From the NCBI RefSeq assembly GCF_000379465.1, contig NZ_KB905410.1, positions 1-37,888 on the forward strand: a DNA stretch of 37,888 nt, read 5' to 3'. Below, piece by piece: positions 1 to 37,888 of this stretch; within the stretch, counting starts at the first letter, position 1; each line of letters opens with the position of its first letter. Origin of the DNA: Sciscionella marina DSM 45152 (GTDB lineage Bacteria; Actinomycetota; Actinomycetes; Mycobacteriales; Pseudonocardiaceae). A model generated the notes under the pieces. That model did no database searches and had not been told where the DNA came from. It saw nothing but the letters and a program-made list of their open reading frames with translations. Position numbers and translations under genes: made by a program.

Positions 1-442
1 CGGTACCGGACCGCACGGAGCGGATGCTCCAGCAGGGGGCGGCTCCGGCTCAGGGATGCCGCGAGCGCTGGCGCGTGTGGTCGGCGTGGATACCACCGGG
101 TTCGCGCAGTGGTATTGGGGTCGGGCGCCGCTACTGTGCCGGGCGGCCGACCCTGCTGCGTTCCGGGACGTGCTCGACCTCGACGGCATCGACGAGCTGC
201 TGACCTGCCGCGGGCTTCGCAGCCCGTTTCTGCGCCTGGCTCGCGACGGCGCTGTCGTCGACTCGACCGTGTTCACCGGGCCGGGTGGTGTCGGAGCGGA
301 GATCGGCGACCAGGTGTGTGCCGACCAGGTCGCCTCCCTGTTCAGCGAGGGCAACACGATCGTCTTGCAGGCGCTGCACCGCAACTGGCCCGATGTCATG
401 GATTTCGTCACCGAGCTGGCCGCGGAGCTGGGCCACCCAGCC
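1..442. repeat. Left copy of 442-bp inverted repeat (cupin gene 5' end)
   Basis: This stretch is the reverse complement of 37447-37888 with three mismatches that I can find (positions 187, 393 and 421 here). Identity stops after 442, where the sequence becomes unrelated. The outermost 8 bases, CGGTACCG, are themselves a palindrome and occur at both window edges. The repeat holds the upstream region and the first 129 codons of the cupin oxygenase gene. A short hairpin (GGAGC, loop GGAT, GCTCC) lies at 17-30. Confidence 0.95.
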
Positions 443-7285: not shown

Positions 7286-8287
7286 TTAGCTGTTGTTGCT
7301 GCTGGTAATGATGTCGCCGTTGACCCCGGCGGGGAAGAAGCCACCCGAGCTGGCCTGTTTCGGGGTGAGATAGACGATGTTGAGCACATTGGGGGCGCTG
7401 CGACTGTAGGCGACCCCGTTGCCGTCGGTGGGCACGATGTTCGCTTGGCCGTTGCTGTCGACGATGCCTTGGTCATCGTCGGATTTGCCGTCGAGGCTGT
7501 CGCGGGCATCGGAAAACTTACCGGCGGCCTCGCGCAGGTCGCGGCCGAACAGGCCGGTGCCCAGCAGCCCGGTATGGGTCTGGTAGAGCTCGGTGCGCAC
7601 GTTGGCCGCGTGGTAGGCCTCGGTGGCCAGGATACCGGCGGCGGCCTCGAGGTAGGTCTTGTTCTGCACCAGCGGCGCGGCACCCTTGTACGCGGTGACC
7701 CCGACATCTTCGAACAGGAACGCCGCGAGCAGGAAGTTCTCCTCGCAAGCGAACGCGTCGAAGCTATGTCCCTTGGCCACGATCCCGGCGGCTTGGGCGG
7801 CGGCGGTGAAACTGTGCTGCAAATCGATCGCCGGTTGCGCGACCGCCGCCGAACCCAACGCCGTGCGCAGGAACTTGACGTGAGCGTGCTCGTCACCGGC
7901 GATCTCGCGGGCAAAGGAGCGCAGCTTCTGGCTGCGGAATGGCACCGCCCGGCCACCGGTGACACCGCCCTGTTTGCCGGTGCCGCCGGTCATCGAGGCG
8001 GGCAGCCCGGCGCCGGTGACCGCATGCAGGTAGAACTGCGATTCAAGGTATTCCAGGTTCAACGCGAAGTTCAACACCGAGGCGTCCGAGAGCTGGCCTG
8101 CGTCGTTGGCCGTCTCGGCAGCGTGTGCCGCGGGGGCATCCAGGGCCGAGAGAGCACCACCACCCAGCGCGGAGGCGCCGACGACGCCCAGCCCGGTCAA
8201 ACCGGCGCTACGCAGGAACCGGCGCCGGTCAGCGTCGTTCTCCGCGCTGCGGTTGATCATCGAGGCCGCATACTTCTTACCGAACAT
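7286..8287 (-). CDS. Twin-arginine-exported ferritin-like domain protein
   Basis: The 333-residue protein has a Tat signal: RRRFLRSAG at residues 21-29, a moderately hydrophobic stretch and an AHA cleavage site near 56. The mature part is a four-helix ferritin-like domain with possible metal ligands Glu79/Glu82 (LEYLESQFY), Glu133/His134/His136 ([10 protein letters not shown]), Glu182-183 and Glu223/His226 ([10 protein letters not shown]). Relatives are annotated as ferritin-like or desiccation-related proteins; the reaction is not established. The C-terminal 90 residues are rich in Gly, Asn and Asp. The SD GAAAGGATGG precedes ATG 8287. It lies between tatB and tatA, so it is a likely client of the neighbouring translocase. 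Confidence 0.88.
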
Positions 8288-8403
8288 CAGCGATCCATCC
8301 TTTCAACCAATCCAGTTGTCCCTCCCACCACGAATTCGAGGTAGCGCCGTCCTTGGATTGGTCCGACCGCCGGCGCCGCGAAAAGAGAGTGAGGAGATCT
8401 GAC
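8288..8403. promoter_or_regulatory. Divergent promoter region between ferritin-like gene and tatA
   Basis: This 116-bp gap separates two diverging transcription units, the ferritin-like gene with tatB to the left and tatA-tatC to the right. Both units must start here. The ribosome-binding sites are visible (GAGGAG at 8391-8396 for tatA; GAAAGGATGG on the other strand), but I could not assign -35 and -10 boxes with confidence. Confidence 0.5.
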
Positions 8404-8709
8404 ATGTTCAGTGGTTTGCAGGGCTGGCACATCATCGTCATCGTGGTCGCGATCGTCCTGTTGTTCGGCGCCAAACGGCTACCAGACGCCGCGAAAGGCA
8501 TCGGCCACTCGCTGCGCATCTTCAAATCCGAAGCGAAAGCCATGCGCGAGCAGAACGACACCGACGACACCGACAGCGCGGCTCCACAGCAGCAGGCCCA
8601 GGATCCGGCCACCGAGCAACTACCGTCCGCGGGCACACCGGACACCCCCGTGGCCGCGGCAGCACCACCCGCACGGGCCAAGACCCACTCGTCGACCGGG
8701 AACGAATAA
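8404..8709 (+). CDS. tatA: Sec-independent protein translocase subunit TatA
   Basis: The 101-residue protein reads MFSGLQGWHIIVIVVAIVLLFGAKRLPDAAKGIGHSLRIFKSEAKA: one short N-terminal membrane helix, the FGAKRLP hinge and an amphipathic helix, diagnostic of TatA. The acidic, Ala/Pro-rich tail is variable in the family. TatA oligomers form the translocation path. ATG 8404 follows GAGGAG by 7 bases. tatC starts 9 bases after the stop, so the two are co-transcribed. Confidence 0.92.
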   Translation: MFSGLQGWHIIVIVVAIVLLFGAKRLPDAAKGIGHSLRIFKSEAKAMREQNDTDDTDSAAPQQQAQDPATEQLPSAGTPDTPVAAAAPPARAKTHSSTGNE

Positions 8710-8718
8710 CCGGTCGTC

Positions 8719-9744
8719 ATGGACACGTCGGCGTTTGCCCCTCGGGGCGGGTGGAAAGAGGCACGGCAGCGGCGCAGCCGTCGTACCAACCCCGATGGCT
8801 CGATGACCCTCGTCGAACACCTCTACGAGCTGCGGTACCGGCTCGGGATGGCGCTACTGGCCGCGGGTGTCGGCGCGCTCGTGTGCTGCCTGTGGTTCAA
8901 CGTCACGATCTGGCCGATCCCGACGCTGAGCCATGTCGTGCTCTATCCGTACTGCCACGGCACCTCGCACACGCTGACCGACCTGGTCGGCAAACCCGGC
9001 AAGGAATGCGGGTTGCTGCAGACCAAACCGTTCGAGGGATTCTCCACGCTGCTCCAGGTTGGCATCACCACCGGTGTGGTGCTGACCAGTCCGTTCTGGC
9101 TGCACCAGCTGTGGGCGTTCATCACGCCCGGGCTACACAGGAAAGAACGGCGGTTCGGCGTCAGCTTCGTGAGTTTCGGTTCGGTACTGTTCCTGCTCGG
9201 CGCCGTCGTGGCGTACCTGTTGTTGCCCGAGGTGCTGCGGGTGATGACGAACGTCGCCGGCAGCGACAACCTGTTGACCGCGTTCTCCGCGAGCGACTAC
9301 GTGTCCTTCCTGATCAACCTCCTCGTCGTGTTCGGTATCAGCTTCGAGCTGCCACTCGTGGTAGTGATGCTGAACTTCTCCGGCGTGCTGCGCTACGAAA
9401 AGGTGCGCCACTGGCGGCGCGGATTCTTCTTCGCGATCGTCATCTTCGCCGCGCTGGTAACCCCGGGCACCGACGCGATCTCCATGGTCATCCTCGCCGC
9501 AGCGCTGTGCCTGCTCTTCGAGATGGCACTACAGCTCGCCAGAGTGCACGACAAGCGCATCGACGCGAAACGCCGCGACGAAGGCTGGGACACCGACGAC
9601 CCGGACACCCCCTCCAAGCTGGACCACACCCCCGACCCCGTGTTCACCCCGCAGCCCGCGGCGCACGCGGGACCGACCCCGGCCACCGAGCAGGCCGAGG
9701 CCGACCGGCGCCCGCGCCGACACTGGTACGACGACGCCACCTAA
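8719..9744 (+). CDS. tatC: Sec-independent protein translocase subunit TatC
   Basis: The 341-residue protein contains the TatC signature SMTLVEHLYELRYRLGMALLA and six membrane helices, with the conserved first periplasmic loop (KPFEGFSTLLQVGI), PFWLHQLWAFITPGLHRKERR and FGISFELPLVVVMLNFSGVL. TatC recognises the twin-arginine motif. The N-terminal 28 residues before the signature and the Asp/Pro/His-rich C-terminal tail of about 70 residues are longer than in E. coli TatC but common in actinobacteria. It is in an operon with tatA. A start at ATG 8803 would fit short homologues, but 8719 is closer to the tatA stop. Confidence 0.93.
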   Translation: MDTSAFAPRGGWKEARQRRSRRTNPDGSMTLVEHLYELRYRLGMALLAAGVGALVCCLWFNVTIWPIPTLSHVVLYPYCHGTSHTLTDLVGKPGKECGLLQTKPFEGFSTLLQVGITTGVVLTSPFWLHQLWAFITPGLHRKERRFGVSFVSFGSVLFLLGAVVAYLLLPEVLRVMTNVAGSDNLLTAFSASDYVSFLINLLVVFGISFELPLVVVMLNFSGVLRYEKVRHWRRGFFFAIVIFAALVTPGTDAISMVILAAALCLLFEMALQLARVHDKRIDAKRRDEGWDTDDPDTPSKLDHTPDPVFTPQPAAHAGPTPATEQAEADRRPRRHWYDDAT

Positions 9745-9760: not shown

Positions 9761-10051
9761 AGGGATCGGCTCGCCCCCGATTCGAACTATTCATGGTGCC
9801 GCGCGAAGGTCAACACCGAGGCATCCGAACGCTGGTGCCCGTCCTGGGCTACTTCGGCACAGACCGCTCGAACGTTTATACCCGTTTTCCCAAGAAACAA
9901 AACCTGGTTGCCGGGAATTCTTAAACTCTTCATGCATAGTGGCTGAACACGTGGCGTTGTTTGAATTTTCCGGCCGGTACGGCAATCCGCTCTCGGGGTC
10001 GGTTCCGGATTAGGGGTGTAAGGAACTGAAAAAATGAAAGGACACCTTGTG
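9761..10051. other. Intergenic region upstream of secreted repeat protein, with ferritin gene scrap
   Basis: Positions about 9804-9836 repeat, with roughly four mismatches in 33 bases, part of the ferritin-like gene near 8059-8091; on the minus strand they read SDASVLTFA against SDASVLNFA. The rest is AT-richer than its surroundings. The last 70 bases share sequence with the region upstream of the paralogue at 18163-18555: both have CGGCAATCCGC and a gapped match through the SD GAAAGGACA. Confidence 0.5.
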
Positions 10052-10456
10052 ATGCAGAAGATGCTCAAGCGCACGATCGCTGCCGCGGCTGTGGCCGCCC
10101 CAATGACCATGGCACTGTCCGGGCTGGCCTCGGCCGACACCTACGGACAAACCCAGCAGCACGCCGGTGCCGACGGGGCGATGTCCACCTCGCAGCAGGC
10201 CAGTACGGGCGGCCACGGTGACGGCGGGTCCTCCTACAACCAGAACTGGCAGCAGGCCGGGCCGGACGGCGCGGACTCCAGCTCGGTGCACTCCAGCACC
10301 GGCGGCAGCGGCCACGGCGGCAAGGGCGGCGCGTCCTACGGCCAGACCAGCCAGCACGCGGGCCCGGACGGCGCGTCTAGTTCCGGCACCCACGCCTCCA
10401 CCGGCCATTCCGACGGTTCCCACCACAGTGGGGGACTGCTGCGCAGCCTGCTGTAA
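10052..10456 (+). CDS. Small secreted three-repeat protein (copy A)
   Basis: The 134-residue product starts with a Sec signal peptide (MQKMLKRTIAAAAVAAPMTM, cleavage after ASA near residue 29). The mature part is three units of about 30 residues, each opening S/T-Y-x-Q, then Q-x-A-G-x-D-G-A-x-S and a His/Gly/Ser linker, and it ends in GLLRSLL. There are no cysteines. The spacing S-x5-Q ... N/D-x-A is close to curlin repeats, so a beta-structured or amyloid-like surface protein is possible (inference). ATG 10052 is preferred over 10034 because GAAAGGACA, conserved in the paralogue, then acts as SD. A second copy lies inverted at 18163-18555. Confidence 0.78.
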   Translation: MQKMLKRTIAAAAVAAPMTMALSGLASADTYGQTQQHAGADGAMSTSQQASTGGHGDGGSSYNQNWQQAGPDGADSSSVHSSTGGSGHGGKGGASYGQTSQHAGPDGASSSGTHASTGHSDGSHHSGGLLRSLL

Positions 10457-15452: not shown

Positions 15453-16202
15453 ATGACCCAGATCGACGACACAGCGGCCGCGTTGCGGAAGCTCACCGAT
15501 ACCATCACCATCGGCGAGCCCCTCCCCGCAGTGCTGCAGCGAGTGTGCGAGTGGGTGACCTCGCTGATACCGGCTGCCACCGCCGCCTCGGTCACCCTCA
15601 TCGACAACGGACAGCCGCGCACCATCGCCACCACCCACGAGAAAGTTCTCGACCTCGATCGGGCCCAGTACCGCGCCGGCGACGGGCCCTGCCTGCACGC
15701 CCTGCGCACCGCGACCACCATCCGCGCCGACCTCGCCCAGCTCAGGGGCCGGTGGCCTGAGTTCGCCGACACCGCCACCGCAGCAGGCATCGCGACCGTG
15801 CTCGCGTGTGCGCTGGTCCTGCCCGACGACACCACCACCACGGCGCACACCGCGCCCGCCACCACCGTGGCGGCGGGCGCGGTGAACGTGTGGAGCGACC
15901 AGCCCGCGGCGTTCGACCCGGTCGAAGCAGCACTGGTCACCATGTTCAGCGGCGCGGCATCCGCACTCGTCCTGACCACACGCCGCTGGGAACGCGCGAG
16001 CGCGTTGGCCGACCAACTGCGGACCGCACTCGCCACCCGCGACCTGATCGCGACCGCCAAAGGCATCGTGATGGCCCGACGCCAGGTCAGCTCCGAAGAA
16101 GCTTTCGCATGGATCACCGATGTCTCCCAGCACACCAACCGCAAAATCCGTGATATTGCCGCCATCCTCATCGACGACCCCATCCTCGTCGAACCCGCAT
16201 AG
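15453..16202 (+). CDS. GAF and ANTAR domain regulator (1)
   Basis: The 249-residue protein has a GAF domain (residues about 10-170; LPAVLQRVCEWVTSLIPAAT, QYRAGDGPCLHAL) and a C-terminal ANTAR domain (LRTALATRDLIATAKGIVMA, SSEEAFAWITDVSQHTNRKI). ANTAR domains bind paired hexaloop hairpins in nascent RNA and stop terminator formation; the GAF part senses a ligand, not known here. The GAF loop from 126 to 150 is very Thr/Ala-rich. It lies just behind an ANTAR fragment and ahead of a broken Asp23 gene. Confidence 0.87.
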   Translation: MTQIDDTAAALRKLTDTITIGEPLPAVLQRVCEWVTSLIPAATAASVTLIDNGQPRTIATTHEKVLDLDRAQYRAGDGPCLHALRTATTIRADLAQLRGRWPEFADTATAAGIATVLACALVLPDDTTTTAHTAPATTVAAGAVNVWSDQPAAFDPVEAALVTMFSGAASALVLTTRRWERASALADQLRTALATRDLIATAKGIVMARRQVSSEEAFAWITDVSQHTNRKIRDIAAILIDDPILVEPA

Positions 16203-16946: not shown

Positions 16947-17822
16947 GAGCTTGTCTCATGTGGTGAGTTTGCGGAGTTTTTTGTGGCAGGTGAGGCTGGC
17001 TCCGAGGATGAGGAAGGAGAGGAAGTGCTCGGCTTTGCGTTCGTAGCGCAACGTGAGACGGCGATATCCGGTGAACCAGGCCATGGTTCGCTCGATGACC
17101 CAGCGATGCTGGCCGAGTTTGTCTTTGGATTCGATGCCTTTGCGGGCGATGCGGACTGTGATGCCGCGGTCGCGGACCCAGCGCCGCAGGTTGAGCTGGT
17201 CGTAGGCCTTGTCGGCGTGCAGCTTGGCCGGCTTGCGACGCCGCGGGCCACGACGGGAGCGGATCGCCGGGATAGCCATCACCAGCGGCTTGAGGGCGTG
17301 GCTGTCGTGGGTGTTAGCCGCGGAGACAGCGACCACGAGCGGCAGCCCAGCACGGTCGGACAGGGCATGGATCTTCGAGCCGGGCTTGCCGCGATCGACT
17401 GGGCTGGGGCCGGTCATGGATCCCCTTTTTTCGCCCGTACGCAGGCACCATCCACGATCGCGCGGCTCCAATCAATGAGGCCCTGGCTGCCGAGTTCGTC
17501 CAGCAGCACGCGATGCAGCTGCCGCCACAGCCCGGCCTTGGTCCACTGCGCAAAGCGGCGATGCGCGGTCTGGAACGGCACCCCGAACGAGGGCGGCAGA
17601 TCCCGCCACGCACAACCGCTGGTCAGCACGTACACGATCGCGGTGAACACCGAACGAGCGTCCACCGGGGCAGTGCCACCGCCCTGCGGGCGCGGCGTGA
17701 ACACCGGGATCAACGGCTCCGCCAGCGCCCACAGCTCATCCGGCACCAACCGTAACGACAAACGATCAACCACAGCCAAGATCATCGCTTATCAGCGACT
17801 AATCACCATGTAAGACACGCTC
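16947..17822 (-). mobile_element. Complete IS5-family (IS427-type) insertion sequence, 876 bp
   Basis: The ends are imperfect 20-bp inverted repeats, starting GAGCTTGTCT at 16947 and, on the minus strand from 17822, GAGCGTGTCT, with 16 of 20 positions equal. The element is flanked by the direct repeat TCA. It carries one transposase split over two overlapping frames, as in IS427-type elements. The ends, duplication and catalytic residues are all present, so it may still be active. Confidence 0.88.
16956..17785 (-). CDS. IS5-family transposase in two frames with frameshift signal
   Basis: The first frame (17785 to 17414, 123 residues) is MILAVVDRLSLRLVPDELWA to VDGACVRAKKG and carries the first catalytic Asp in the SRAIVDG segment. 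The second frame (to 16956) continues with GSMTGPSPVDRGKPGSKIHA, LHADKAYDQ (second Asp) and RWVIERTMAWF (Glu), then YRRLTLRYE. The two overlap at an A6G4 run near 17424-17433 on the minus strand, a slippery sequence that allows a -1 or equivalent shift to make the full DDE transposase of about 260 residues. Without the shift only the short N-terminal product is made. Confidence 0.88.
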
Positions 17823-18162: not shown

Positions 18163-18555
18163 TTACAGCAGGCTGCTCAGCAGACCGCCGCCCTCATGTG
18201 TTCCGCCGTTGCCACCCGCGGAAGCGTGGGTGGCGGAGCTGGATGCCCCGTCAGGGCCCGCGTGCTGCCAGCTCTGGTCGTACGAGGCGCCGCCATTGCC
18301 GCCGCTGCCGATGCTGGAGTGCACTGAGTTGGAGTCCGCGCCGTTCGGGCCGGCTTGCTGCCAGCTCTGGTCGTACGAGACGCCACCGCCGTGGCCACCC
18401 GTGCTGGCCTGCTGGGAGCTGGACATCGCTGCCTTGGAACCGGCGTGCTGGTTCGTCTGCCCGTAGGTGTCGGCTGAGGCCAACCCGGACAGTGCCAGGG
18501 TCAACGGAGCGGCAACAGCCGCGACGGCAACCGTACGCTTGAGTATCTTCTGCAT
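18163..18555 (-). CDS. Small secreted three-repeat protein (copy B)
   Basis: The 130-residue paralogue of the protein at 10052 has a signal peptide (MQKILKRTVAVAAVAAPLTL, cleavage after ASA) and three units opening TYGQTNQHAG, SYDQSWQQAGPNGAD and SYDQSWQHAGPDGAS, ending GLLSSLL. Signal peptide and end motif are more conserved than the linkers, where Gly and Ser counts vary. ATG 18555 is chosen because TGAAAGGACA upstream is conserved in both copies and gives an SD. In the first unit the usual DG is replaced by SKA. It is inverted relative to copy A and about 8 kb away. Confidence 0.78.
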   Translation of the reverse strand: MQKILKRTVAVAAVAAPLTLALSGLASADTYGQTNQHAGSKAAMSSSQQASTGGHGGGVSYDQSWQQAGPNGADSNSVHSSIGSGGNGGASYDQSWQHAGPDGASSSATHASAGGNGGTHEGGGLLSSLL

Positions 18556-18573: not shown

Positions 18574-19040
18574 TATTTCTCACTCTTGCATCCGTAATAC
18601 GGATCCGATCCGGAAGGCGGATTGCCGTTCTGGCCCGGGATTTCGAGGTGTTCGCTCGATCGAAGGAAATGCTACGAACAAGCGAAGAATTTTTCGCTAA
18701 CCATGTTTCGTCCTCGGCGGAATGGGGTGGCAGCCGCTGTTCTTCGCGCACCGTGTTTCGACATGGTCGAGCGTTGACGGATATGTCGGAGCGGGTAGGG
18801 TGCTGCTCTGCGCTGGGGAAAGGCACCGTGTCGAGATGTCGGATAGACACTCGTTCCGACCGGGGGCATGCACCGGGAAACTCGAGCCCCCTCGGCGCGG
18901 TGGCCCGCGGGTACCGTGGACGTGTAGGTTGCACCGCCCTGCGCTTCGGCAGTTGAAAATTCCGCTGAAGTTCGATCGCGGTGGGGTTGCCGCGTAGTCT
19001 CGGCGTAGTAAGGACCTCACAGTGTGAAGTAGGGAGAGGG
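18574..19040. other. Divergent intergenic region with palindromes
   Basis: This 467-bp gap separates the secreted protein B gene from the GAF-ANTAR cluster. It contains the perfect 15-bp palindrome ATCCGTAATACGGAT (18590-18604) 35 bases upstream of the secreted protein start and a hairpin AGCGAA/TTCGCT at 18681-18698. Around 18660-18720 the DNA is clearly AT-richer than its neighbours. No coding frame is supported. Confidence 0.55.
18590..18604. promoter_or_regulatory. 15-bp palindrome in the leader of secreted protein B
   Basis: ATCCGTA, A, TACGGAT is a perfect inverted repeat in the presumed 5' leader. It could be an operator or an RNA hairpin. The copy A leader has related but not palindromic sequence. 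Confidence 0.45.
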
Positions 19041-19772
19041 ATGGGAACGCAGTCCGCGGAGGAGCCGGTGCCCGCCGAAGTCGGCGATCAACTGGTGACC
19101 GCGCTCGCGGCCGCGGCTCGTGAGCTCGGTGAGCGACCTGGTTCTGAGGACGACATGTTGCGGTCGATCGTGTCCGCGGCGGTGGCCACGGTGCCCGGCG
19201 CGGAGCATGCGGGGGTGTCGTTGCTGCACAGTGACGGCGCGATCATCTCGTACACCCCGTCCAGCAGCACGGTGGCCGAGGTGGATCAGTTGCAGTCCAC
19301 CTACCGGGAGGGACCGTGCGTGACCGCGTTGTGGGATGAGCACACCGTGTTGGTCGACGACCTGGTTGCCGAGGCCGATCGGTGGCCACGGTTCGCCCCG
19401 GAGGCAGCCGCATGCGGGGTGGCGAGCATGTTGTCGTTTCAGTTGTTCACCAGGGAGGACACACTCGGCGCGTTGAACCTGTACTCCAGCGTCCGGGAGG
19501 GGTTCGATGCCGAGTCGCAGACGCTTGGTGGACTGTTCGCCTCGCACGCCGCGTTGGTGTTGGCCGGAGCGCAGGAATCCGCGAGCCTGCACCGGGCGTT
19601 AGCTACCCGGGACGTGATCGGGCAGGCCAAGGGAATTCTGATCGAGCGGTTCGATGTGGATGCCGAGACCGCGTTCAGCATGCTGGTACACAGCTCGCAG
19701 ACCACGAATCTGAAACTGGTCGACGTGGCAAGCTGGCTGGCCCAGGGCCGCGACCGTCGCCGGTCGAGCTAG
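19041..19772 (+). CDS. GAF and ANTAR domain regulator (2)
   Basis: The 243-residue protein carries a GAF domain (VPGAEHAGVSLLHSDGAIIS, YREGPCVTALWDEHTVLVDD, VASMLSFQLFTREDTLGALN) and an ANTAR domain (LATRDVIGQAKGILIERFDV, AFSMLVHSSQTTNLKLVDVA). ATG 19041 follows GGGAGAGGG; the frame is open 60 bases further but without an SD. It is the first of three GAF-ANTAR genes in the same direction. Expected role: ligand-dependent antitermination in the cytoplasm. The RNA targets are not known. Confidence 0.9.
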   Translation: MGTQSAEEPVPAEVGDQLVTALAAAARELGERPGSEDDMLRSIVSAAVATVPGAEHAGVSLLHSDGAIISYTPSSSTVAEVDQLQSTYREGPCVTALWDEHTVLVDDLVAEADRWPRFAPEAAACGVASMLSFQLFTREDTLGALNLYSSVREGFDAESQTLGGLFASHAALVLAGAQESASLHRALATRDVIGQAKGILIERFDVDAETAFSMLVHSSQTTNLKLVDVASWLAQGRDRRRSS

Positions 19773-19809: not shown

Positions 19810-20529
19810 ATGGACGAGCACCGGCGCCAGCAACTCGAACAGCTGCTGAACGCCGATGGTGATGGCGAGCACGGTTCGCAGATGAGCCTGATCTGTACCC
19901 GCCTGGTGACCGAGCTGGCCGTGACCGGTGCCGGGGCGACCGTTTTGACCCAGCTCGGCGACAGCGACGGGCACGGGCCGAGCCGCGGGCTGGTCCACGC
20001 CTCCAACGAAGTCAGCGCTGGGCTCGAAGACCTGCAGCTCACGGTCGGCGAGGGCCCGTGCCTGGACACCTTCGGCACCGGCGGCCCGGTCCTGGTCGCC
20101 CACCTGGCGAACGAGACCGCCCGCTGGCCGGCCTTCACCCGCGACGCCCTCGAACTCGGTGCGGCAGCGGTATTCTCCTTCCCCCTCCAAATCGGAGTGG
20201 TGCGGCTCGGGTCGCTGGACTGCTACCGGGACACCCCCGGCCCACTGACCCAGGCGCAGGTGGCCGACGCGCTGATCCTGGCAGAGCTGGCCACCCACGC
20301 GGTGATCACCGAGCTGGACGGACACCGTACCGACGACATGAGCTGGCTGGCCGACTCGCACGCCGAGGTGCATCAGGCCACCGGCATGGTCGCTGTGCAG
20401 CTCGCCGCCACCACCGACGCCGCACTGCTGCGACTGCGCGGCTACGCCTACACCAACCAGCTCCCACTCGCCGAGGTCGCCTCCCAGGTGGTGGGCCGCA
20501 CACTGCGGTTTAGCCCCGATGACCCCTGA
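19810..20529 (+). CDS. GAF and ANTAR domain regulator (3)
   Basis: The 239-residue protein shows a shorter GAF region (LVTELAVTGAGATVLTQLGD, LTVGEGPCLDTFGTGGPVLV, RWPAFTRDALELGAAAVFSF) and a C-terminal ANTAR-like domain (LADSHAEVHQATGMVAVQLA, ALLRLRGYAYTNQLPLAEVA). The ANTAR core has QATGM where most have QAKGI, so the usual Lys is missing; RNA binding may be altered. It starts 37 bases after the preceding GAF-ANTAR gene with AGGAGG before ATG and is likely co-transcribed. Confidence 0.88.
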   Translation: MDEHRRQQLEQLLNADGDGEHGSQMSLICTRLVTELAVTGAGATVLTQLGDSDGHGPSRGLVHASNEVSAGLEDLQLTVGEGPCLDTFGTGGPVLVAHLANETARWPAFTRDALELGAAAVFSFPLQIGVVRLGSLDCYRDTPGPLTQAQVADALILAELATHAVITELDGHRTDDMSWLADSHAEVHQATGMVAVQLAATTDAALLRLRGYAYTNQLPLAEVASQVVGRTLRFSPDDP

Positions 20530-20609
20530 ACCAACACGTGCCGGGAACACCATGAGACGACCCGGCCATGAGACGACACCGTGCCGAAGCAGCACCAGGA
20601 AGGACCGTG

Positions 20610-21368
20610 ATGAGTAGCGCCCGGGAACAACGACTGGCCGCCACCTTCGTGACGTTGGCCGACACGCTCGTCACCGAGTTCGACGTCCTCGATTTCCTGA
20701 CCCTGCTCACCGAACGCGCCGTCGAACTTCTCTCCGTCTCCGCCGCCGGGGTCATGCTCTCCGACCAGCGCGGCGGATGGCGCCCGACCGCCACCTCGAC
20801 CGAACACGCCGAACTGGTCAACCTGTTCGCCACCCAAACCCGGGGCGGGCCCTGCCAAGACGCGGCCCGCACCGGCACCCCGATAGCCAGCGGCGACCTC
20901 AACCAGGAAAACACCCGGTGGCCCCAGTTCGCCCAGGCCGCGACCCACGCCGGCTACCGCGCCGCATACGCGATCCCGATGCGCTCGCGCGAGCAAACCA
21001 TCGGCGCGCTGACCCTGCTCAACCGCGAGGCCATCCCGGTCGACGAGAACAGCGCCGCACTCGGGCAAGCCCTCGCCGACGTCGCCACCATCGGACTGCT
21101 CCAGCACCGCGCCGTGCACCGCGACGAGATACTCTCCGAACAGCTACAAGCCACCCTGCACTGGCGCACCGTCGTCGAACAAGCCAAAGGCATCCTCGCC
21201 GAAGCAGGCAACCTCCAAATGCACCAGGCCTACACTCTGCTGCGCCACTACGCCCACCGAAACCACCGGCGTCTTTCCGAAGTCGCCCACGAACTGGCCA
21301 CCGGCCAACAACCACCGACCGAACTCCTCACCCGGCACAGCCAGGAACTCGAAACCGGCCAGACCTGA
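20610..21368 (+). CDS. GAF and ANTAR domain regulator (4)
   Basis: The 252-residue protein has a GAF domain (FDVLDFLTLLTERAVELLSV, TRGGPCQDAARTGTPIASGD, AAYAIPMRSREQTIGALTLL) and an ANTAR domain (LQATLHWRTVVEQAKGILAE, QAYTLLRHYAHRNHRRLSEV). ATG 20610 follows AGGAAGGACCGTG; a start at 20568 lacks such a site. This is the closest relative in the window of the ANTAR fragment at 15083-15370, so that fragment may be the end of a duplicated copy. Confidence 0.9.
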   Translation: MSSAREQRLAATFVTLADTLVTEFDVLDFLTLLTERAVELLSVSAAGVMLSDQRGGWRPTATSTEHAELVNLFATQTRGGPCQDAARTGTPIASGDLNQENTRWPQFAQAATHAGYRAAYAIPMRSREQTIGALTLLNREAIPVDENSAALGQALADVATIGLLQHRAVHRDEILSEQLQATLHWRTVVEQAKGILAEAGNLQMHQAYTLLRHYAHRNHRRLSEVAHELATGQQPPTELLTRHSQELETGQT

Positions 21369-36619: not shown

Positions 36620-37833
36620 GTTGTCGCCGCCCCGGGCACGAGCACGCCTTCGCGCAGCAGACGACGCACCAACACCAGCTGATCATCCTCGTCGAGACCA
36701 GGCAGATTCCCGAGACGGTGTGTCGTTCCATCGAGCACGGCACGCAGTGCGCGACCGGTGATCCGCGGCAGCGTGATGTGCCGGTCGGGCAATTCGAGCA
36801 CGAGATGCTCATCGTGCTCGATCAACCGGTGCCCCAAGCCAATCCGCCTGCGGACCACGGCACCGACGGCCAGATCGCGTGCAAACGCCGTCGCGGCGAT
36901 CGGCCGGATGGGCTCGGGACGGTTGCCCGACCACACCCCACGGCGCGTGTGCCCCGCGACGTCCTCGACCGGAACGCCGGGAAGGGCTTCGGCGAGGACA
37001 GCGCGCACTACCTCGAGATGGGGAGCGAGTTGCTCGGGATCGGAGACGTCGACCCCCAATGGCAGCGACGCCCGCAATCGCTCGTCCCGTGCAACGAGGT
37101 CGGCCAGTGCCTGGACCAGTGCGAACCGGGTCACGACGTGGACGCCGACGGTCAGATGTGCCGACACTTCCCCGAGGGCCACCGCGGAGTGCAGCCAGCC
37201 CCGGGGAAGATACAGCGCGTCGCCCGGTTCGAGCACGGCGTCGATCGTCGGCGCCTCGTCGCGCGCCCGAGCCGTGACCGCGTCGGCATACTCGTTCCAC
37301 GGCTGGTCACGCAGTGGGTCGTCATGCACGGGCGGGTGCACGGTCCACCGTTTTCGCCCAGCGAGCTGGAGCACGAATACGTCATGCACGTCGTAGTGCG
37401 CCGCGAAACCCTGCGATTGCGGCGGGGTGACATAGGCGTTGGCCTGGGCTGGGTGGCCCAGCTCCGCAGCCAGCTCGGTGACGAAATCCATGACACCGGG
37501 CCAGTTGCGGTGCAGCGCCTGCAAGACGATCGTGTTGCCCTCGCTGAACAGGGAGGCGACCTGGTCGGCACACACCTGGTCGCCGATCTCCGCTCCGACA
37601 CCACCCGGCCCGGTGAACACGGTCGAGTCGACGACAGCGCCGTCGCGAGCCAGGCGCAGAAACGGGCTGCGAAGCCCGCGGCAGGTCAGCAGCTCGTCGA
37701 TCCCGTCGAGGTCGAGCACGTCCCGGAACGCAGCAGGGTCGGCCGCCCGGCACAGTAGCGGCGCCCGACCCCAATACCACTGCGCGAACCCGGTGGTATC
37801 CACGCCGACCACACGCGCCAGCGCTCGCGGCAT
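36616..37833 (-). CDS. Cupin (JmjC-like) Fe(II)/2-oxoglutarate oxygenase, Cupin_4 family
   Basis: The 405-residue protein is of the family that includes the ribosomal oxygenase YcfD/RoxA (PF08007). Metal ligands are visible as His146 and Asp148 (AAHYDVHDVFVLQLAGRKRW) and His215 (LEPGDALYLPRGWLHS). A C-terminal winged-helix-like part follows (RRRIGLGHRLIEHDEHLVLE). YcfD hydroxylates a ribosomal-protein arginine; the target here is unknown. ATG 37833 is also the start of the truncated copy at 56. The gene's first 387 bases and upstream region lie in the terminal inverted repeat. Confidence 0.88.
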   Translation of the reverse strand: MPRALARVVGVDTTGFAQWYWGRAPLLCRAADPAAFRDVLDLDGIDELLTCRGLRSPFLRLARDGAVVDSTVFTGPGGVGAEIGDQVCADQVASLFSEGNTIVLQALHRNWPGVMDFVTELAAELGHPAQANAYVTPPQSQGFAAHYDVHDVFVLQLAGRKRWTVHPPVHDDPLRDQPWNEYADAVTARARDEAPTIDAVLEPGDALYLPRGWLHSAVALGEVSAHLTVGVHVVTRFALVQALADLVARDERLRASLPLGVDVSDPEQLAPHLEVVRAVLAEALPGVPVEDVAGHTRRGVWSGNRPEPIRPIAATAFARDLAVGAVVRRRIGLGHRLIEHDEHLVLELPDRHITLPRITGRALRAVLDGTTHRLGNLPGLDEDDQLVLVRRLLREGVLVPGAATT

Positions 37834-37888
37834 CCCTGAGCCGGAGCCGCCCCCTGCTGGAGCATCCGCTCCGTGCGGTCCGGTACCG
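37447..37888. repeat. Right copy of 442-bp inverted repeat
   Basis: This stretch is the reverse complement of 1-442 with three mismatches and holds the intact 5' end of the cupin gene. As the repeat reaches both window edges, its true length cannot be seen. If both copies lie on one chromosome, recombination between them would invert the 37 kb in between. Confidence 0.95.

Follow-up and report, generated by a model that had tools for sequence, protein, structure and literature searches.

The gene at 10052..10456 on the forward strand of the window, the stretch of 37,888 nucleotides of Sciscionella marina DSM 45152 that was analysed here, encodes a 134-residue protein (copy A). Our preferred reading, which we hold tentatively, is that it is a lineage-restricted, secreted β-hairpin-repeat protein and probably a structural or adhesive component of the cell surface. 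The fold part of this reading, which comes from modelling, is the more certain and the function part the less so. The gene itself is defined by its open reading frame, its repeat hits, its paralogues and their dN/dS ratios.

The open reading frame around copy A runs over 10034..10456(+). The likely start is the ATG at 10052, which is preceded at a distance of nine bases by AAAGGA, and a second in-frame ATG further upstream, at 10034, is an alternative. By inspection, the N-terminal stretch MQKMLKRTIAAAAVAAPMTMALSGLASA (MQKMLKRT...LASA; 10052..10135, +) is a putative Sec-type signal peptide with a predicted mature start at DTYG, and the A-S-A that precedes an Asp or Glu in this cleavage region is kept in most relatives. 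Judged by its sequence, copy A is probably secreted. An Arg-Arg pair is found within the first 10 residues of 23 of 42 distinct family proteins; the host copies carry Lys-Arg. The mature protein of 106 residues comprises three similar units and then a hydrophobic C-terminal tail, GLLRSLL (10433..10453, +). The three-unit repeat described in the initial annotation is real, with three matches to [ST]Y.Q..Q and three to AG.[DN]GA and a turn-to-turn spacing of 31 and 34 residues, and the mature sequence is free of Cys, as had also been stated. The composition is very polar and Gly-rich with few bulky hydrophobic residues, and inspection by eye revealed no anchoring motif. The conserved GLLxSLL ending that had been claimed is present at the C-terminus of copy A and only partly shared by the family: a regular expression for a similar hydrophobic tail matches 19 of the 42 distinct proteins, and 14 of the 42 have tails rich in D, E, H and Y.

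The structure of mature copy A was predicted with AF2 from an alignment of 20 sequences. The model contains six strands, two in each unit (all coordinates on the forward strand): residues 2-11 and 14-24 in unit 1 (mature residues 2-24; 10139..10207), 32-42 and 45-55 in unit 2 (mature residues 32-55; 10229..10300) and 66-76 and 79-89 in unit 3 (mature residues 66-89; 10331..10402). The pLDDT is at least 90 at 59 of the 106 residues, with means over ten-residue blocks of 92 in unit 1, 94 in unit 2 and 77, 94 and 88 in unit 3, and is below 50 in the tail. The strand-turn-strand arrangement predicted for each unit agrees with the β-rich modular repeat protein envisaged in the initial annotation. 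The two residues between the strands of a unit are the P-D of A-G-P-D-G. The sequence PDG favours tight hairpin turns. As the strands lie two residues apart, their spacing suggests antiparallel hairpins; the model may also describe a non-curlin solenoid.

When the model was compared with known and predicted structures using Foldseek, no match reached E ≤ 0.001 (best E 0.33 in the PDB and 0.11 in BFVD). Streptavidin and CapZ, both antiparallel sheets, lead among the PDB matches listed (50 of 223). The BFVD matches listed (50 of 311) are a mixture of tail-fibre, MORN-repeat, barrel-like, capsid, movement and unnamed proteins, so the Foldseek search hardly discriminates. The likeness to the tail fibre of Caulobacter phage Seuss (TMq 0.66, rmsd 3.1) and to a MORN-repeat protein (TMq 0.41), both in BFVD, is weak, and a sequence relation of the look-alikes to the hairpin-repeat family is absent (0 matches at E ≤ 10 in a profile search of PDB sequences; best E 0.02 in PHROGs). 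As regards the β-solenoid of strand-arc-strand repeats known from curlin, the model places the strands of a unit two residues apart, as in a hairpin, and the Foldseek matches are too weak and mixed to fix a topology. Literature searches on MORN-repeat hairpins, on a small secreted repeat protein of Saccharopolyspora and on the AGPDGA motif returned only unrelated work.

The unit recurs in other genera. Relatives in Amycolatopsis, Prauserella, Saccharothrix and their kin share a conserved unit, [YF]-x-[QES]-x4-A-G-P-D-G-A-x-[ST]-x2-[TV]-x-[AS], with successive units mostly 28-36 residues apart and one to six units per protein. Its conservation was measured over 83 unit windows from 28 proteins, a few of the windows being out-of-register duplicates. 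The regular expression that defined the windows fixed residue sets at positions 0, 1, 4 and 5 and required an aromatic residue within -10 to -6; the positions left free by it are strongly patterned, with Tyr or Phe at -7 in 77 of the 83 windows, Ser or Thr at +7 in 66, Thr or Val at +10 in 70, Ala or Ser at +12 in 78 and Thr or Ala at +14 in 65. A hidden Markov model of the unit recovers three units in 33 of 47 proteins (42 of the 47 being its training set) and gives two matches in 235 shuffled proteins. In copy A, itself part of the training set, the three units are matched at 3.7e-05, 1e-07 and 4.3e-07, respectively. The same model finds four units in a protein of A. iheyensis. A longer relative (L105; G386:C1:5758800-5760300) has six units with an exact period of 29 residues, three of which share an identical 22-residue core, YFGQGGSMATPKGATAFNTESG; its C-terminal part after the units looks unrelated, and it has no Pfam match. 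One genome (G376) carries four short paralogues in tandem with one or two units each, as counted by eye.

This conservation bears on the alternative that copy A is a mostly disordered, Ser/Gly/Gln-rich secreted protein, acting as a spacer or in hydration or metal binding, in which the repeats are short linear motifs. We consider this unlikely, while giving it more weight than the other alternatives discussed below. The polar, Gly-rich composition is in keeping with it, as are the low-confidence tail of the AF2 model, the D/E/H/Y-rich tails of some relatives and the model of the four-unit relative, in which strand-turn-strand is predicted in three of the four units, the region of the third unit is of low confidence, and the overall pLDDT is 67.6. 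The retention of the Y/F, S/T, T/V and A/S positions across genera and the high pLDDT over more than half of mature copy A argue against it.

Searches of genome samples place the family, by sequence, within a narrow lineage. A profile built from the three host copies (see below) matches 54 of 390 genomes of the host's family, in 12 of 46 genera, at E ≤ 1e-3. With a 14-row profile at 1e-6 the figures are 111 of 390 genomes and 19 of 46 genera, which are upper figures because several of the matches (for example in genus g61) span only the signal peptide and the residues just after it; one g61 frame (L103) that was translated contains no such units. In a sample of the order, the 14-row profile at 1e-5 matches 28 of 298 genomes, one of them outside the host's family, and in a sample of the phylum at 1e-6 the host genome is the only match among 396. 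A search of named genomes gave 24 loci, 23 of them in Amycolatopsis, Prauserella and Saccharothrix; the remaining one, a weak row from a Gemmataceae MAG (L065), was dropped from the family set. Also excluded were L004, L005, L009 and L012, the match in L009 sitting in an amidase-like open reading frame. Most genomes of the host's family lack the gene at the thresholds used, it was not found in the sole other species of the genus examined (1 of 1), and a scan for relatives with copy A alone found none.

There was no significant Pfam match for 16 distinct proteins (14 alignment members, including the three host copies, and two long relatives) and no significant NCBIfam match for the three copies. 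The rows that did appear were rejected as chance: HXXSHH (0.77) in Pfam, MmpB (0.54) and a β-lactamase model (0.023, over residues 6-62 of copy B, far under its cut-off) in NCBIfam, a PDB row at 0.55 and the best PHROGs row. On these searches, the hairpin-repeat proteins are a lineage-restricted actinobacterial family that is unlisted in the libraries searched.

The initial annotation had called the protein curlin-like, and we regard as very improbable the corresponding model of a functional amyloid in which the units stack as a parallel β-solenoid and polymerize head to tail like CsgA. The spacing behind that label, [ST]-x5-Q-x4-[ND]-x-A, does occur three times in mature copy A, where 1000 shuffles average 0.02 occurrences, but within-protein shuffles take no account of the duplications that generate repeats, so the excess is evidence of a repeat and not of a curlin origin. 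Hardly any protein other than the three paralogues has the complete spacing, and [ST]Y.Q..Q is confined to these three among 51 entries (42 distinct proteins); in the unit windows of the relatives the curlin-like positions are weakly kept (Ser at -8 in 34 of 83 and Gln at -2 in 12 of 83). The consulted passages of a published study (PMC10192328) give the curlin regular expressions as QX10Q, NX5QxG and a degenerate form, and the curlin unit as 23 ± 5 residues. These expressions have 0, 0 and 0 matches in the three copies, compared with 7, 0 and 5 in the E. coli K-12 CsgA control. In the 39 other relatives the degenerate form is matched ten times, against 4.25 by shuffling (P 0.01), which, with the repeated strand-turn-strand units of the AF2 model, speaks for a curlin-type amyloid.

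The remaining comparisons with curli go the other way. The Curlin_rpt model (PF07012) is unreported at E ≤ 10 in the three copies and 14 family members, and absent from the host genome at E ≤ 1, whereas it matches the CsgA control at 1.4e-27 over five stretches. Profile comparison by hhalign with CsgA and CsgB, represented by a profile of two rows only, gives a probability of 0.03%. CsgG (PF03783) was not found in the host genome at E ≤ 1, with a positive E. coli control. A monoderm is not expected to need a CsgG channel. Curli are absent among the PDB Foldseek matches listed (50 of 223); the CsgA chains 8enq and 8c50 are present in the PDB sequences. The family does resemble CsgA in that both are small secreted strand-turn-strand repeat proteins of variable repeat number, but the copies lack the QX10Q kernel, the turn is a tight, two-residue PDG turn, the units are longer (28-36 residues apart as against the figure in the consulted passages of PMC10192328) and the conserved residues are Tyr/Phe and T/V-x-A. 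Homology to curlin is rejected on the regular expressions, the hidden Markov model and the profile comparison, with E. coli K-12 CsgA as the control, and the curlin-like assignment is not sustained. No paper was found in literature searches on the curlin repeat and functional amyloid in Actinobacteria or on functional amyloid in Pseudonocardiaceae.

The host genome (8.54 Mb) contains two further copies. Copy B, a 130-residue paralogue at 18163..18555 on the reverse strand of the window, where the sequence match covers 18166-18555, has 76% protein identity to copy A; its first unit is degenerate (AGSKAA), which leaves only two matches to AG.[DN]GA. Copy C, on a second contig (G000:C63:3737-4141), has 87% protein identity to copy A. 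The dN/dS ratios (NG86) are 0.25 for A-B, 0.12 for A-C and 0.19 for B-C. All three copies are therefore under purifying selection and are real genes, the proteins of which are kept. Over 383 bases at each end of the window (1-383 and 37506-37888, oppositely oriented) the sequence is 99.5% identical to the terminus of contig C63 (L002 2975-3357). The contig breaks are therefore probably at a repeat, and C63 may lie beside the window in the genome.

The three copies share an upstream dyad, ACGGCAATCCGC-N14-CCGKATTA, that ends 39-40 bp before the start codon. It lies at 9979..10012(+) before copy A, where it reads ACGGCAATCCGC-N14-CCGGATTA and stops 39 bp short of the start codon, and a genome search located it at 18595..18628(-) before copy B. 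When up to three mismatches are allowed there are four sites in the genome: the three copies, which are exact, and one with three mismatches. The upstream RNA of the three copies folds no better than shuffles (z of +1.29, -0.84 and +0.76), which makes a promoter or operator likelier than an RNA element, and no Rfam model reaches its gathering score in the window. A sub-threshold miRNA match from Rfam in L003 was judged to be chance. Within the stretch of about 110 bases that precedes the start codon, six relatives from Amycolatopsis and Prauserella (L048, L049, L052, L054, L056 and L063, chosen by eye among 23) have in common a hairpin and a small second one beside the ribosome-binding site. 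In these, 7 of 19 predicted pairs are changed on both sides, but the covariation term is only -0.06; the single-sequence z lies between -1.03 and -4.06.

Copy A is preceded by a Ferritin_2 gene (7286-8287, -), TatA (8353-8709) and TatC (8719-9744), and followed by a molybdopterin oxidoreductase gene and one for sigma-70. A ferritin-like paralogue also adjoins copy C on C63 (L002 164-1160(-)), with 82% DNA identity to window positions 7293-8299 and split over two frames. Window positions 9779-9858 are 80% identical over 81 bp to the N-terminal region of that paralogue and, from this match, look like a ferritin remnant upstream of copy A. Four GAF-ANTAR regulators are encoded at 15453-16202(+), 18981-19772(+), 19810-20529(+) and 20568-21368(+), the last three in a row by copy B and the one at 19810 under the Pfam cut-offs, and an IS4/5-type transposase in two overlapping frames (16956-17785, -) is also near copy B. 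Neighbouring open reading frames of at least 100 residues were clustered across 23 named loci, C63 and the window, and the 25 widest clusters listed reflect mostly synteny within a genus. Two of them span genera (Amycolatopsis/Saccharothrix and Prauserella/Saccharothrix) at differing distances and sides, so that none of the genes in the clusters listed keeps one position relative to the repeat gene from clade to clade. None of the neighbours suggests surface assembly. That the protein is cut at its Gly-rich linkers into several short secreted peptides, acting as signals or antimicrobials, is very improbable and the least probable of the accounts considered, the three similar units with variable linkers between them being set against the lack of any processing site seen by eye, a unit number that runs from one to six and the lack of a neighbour gene conserved across clades among the clusters listed.

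The preferred reading, of a β-hairpin-repeat protein at the cell surface, would work as follows. After export, presumably by Sec, each unit would fold as a strand of about ten residues, a tight A-G-P-D-G-A turn and a strand of about 11 residues, with Gly-rich linkers joining the units and a flexible hydrophobic tail at the end. The units would form an open-ended, probably antiparallel, sheet with free edge strands. On the outer face of the hypha the protein may serve in a structural or adhesive layer, the sheet edges and the GLLxSLL tail making contacts if it self-associates. With so few bulky hydrophobic residues, a lone single-layer sheet may be unstable.

Actinobacterial surface proteins offer a point of comparison, and the initial annotation held copy A to be unlike chaplins and without their motif. 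This was confirmed: the chaplin model (PF03777) is unreported for copies A, B and C, which have a repeat architecture instead, and with no match and no Cys membership of the chaplins is rejected. A scan of the host genome with PF03777, in which no positive control rose above the cut-off, gives just two places, both under it with E about 0.6, and in a search of a class sample the host genome has no match at E ≤ 0.01. For rodlin, an NCBIfam scan of the three copies returned no rodlin row at E ≤ 10, a negative that would count only if that library includes a rodlin model. The likeness to chaplins is a general one: both groups consist of small actinobacterial proteins that carry signal peptides, occur in several copies and are restricted in lineage, in some cases with tandem paralogues, whereas the hairpin-repeat proteins lack Cys and have repeats rather than one chaplin domain. 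In a sample of the class, the chaplin model matches 102 of 394 genomes at E ≤ 0.01 and 96 of 394 above the cut-off, with the strongest matches in family f18 and numerous ones in f103. The host's family (f1) accounts for only two of the 102, with weak matches (E about 0.002). In the consulted passages of a review (PMC4255298), chaplin-like proteins are named for several genera with complex development, and no genus named there is of the host's family.

Since the hairpin-repeat family is near-confined to the host's family among the genome samples searched, chaplin matches are rare there and the chaplin genera in the consulted passages of the review lie elsewhere, the protein could be a coat protein of mycelial Pseudonocardiaceae, with polymerizing β-hairpin sheets doing the job of chaplins and the number of units setting thickness or adhesion. 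This extension is speculative and we think it improbable: most genomes of the family, at the thresholds used, and the other species of the genus lack the gene, and one genome (G077) has a hairpin-repeat family match and a weak chaplin match together. The work sets out a well-marked repeat family that is open to experiment and for which 16 distinct proteins searched gave no significant match in Pfam. If its members do form surface layers, this would bear on how hyphae are coated in aerial-growing Pseudonocardiaceae.
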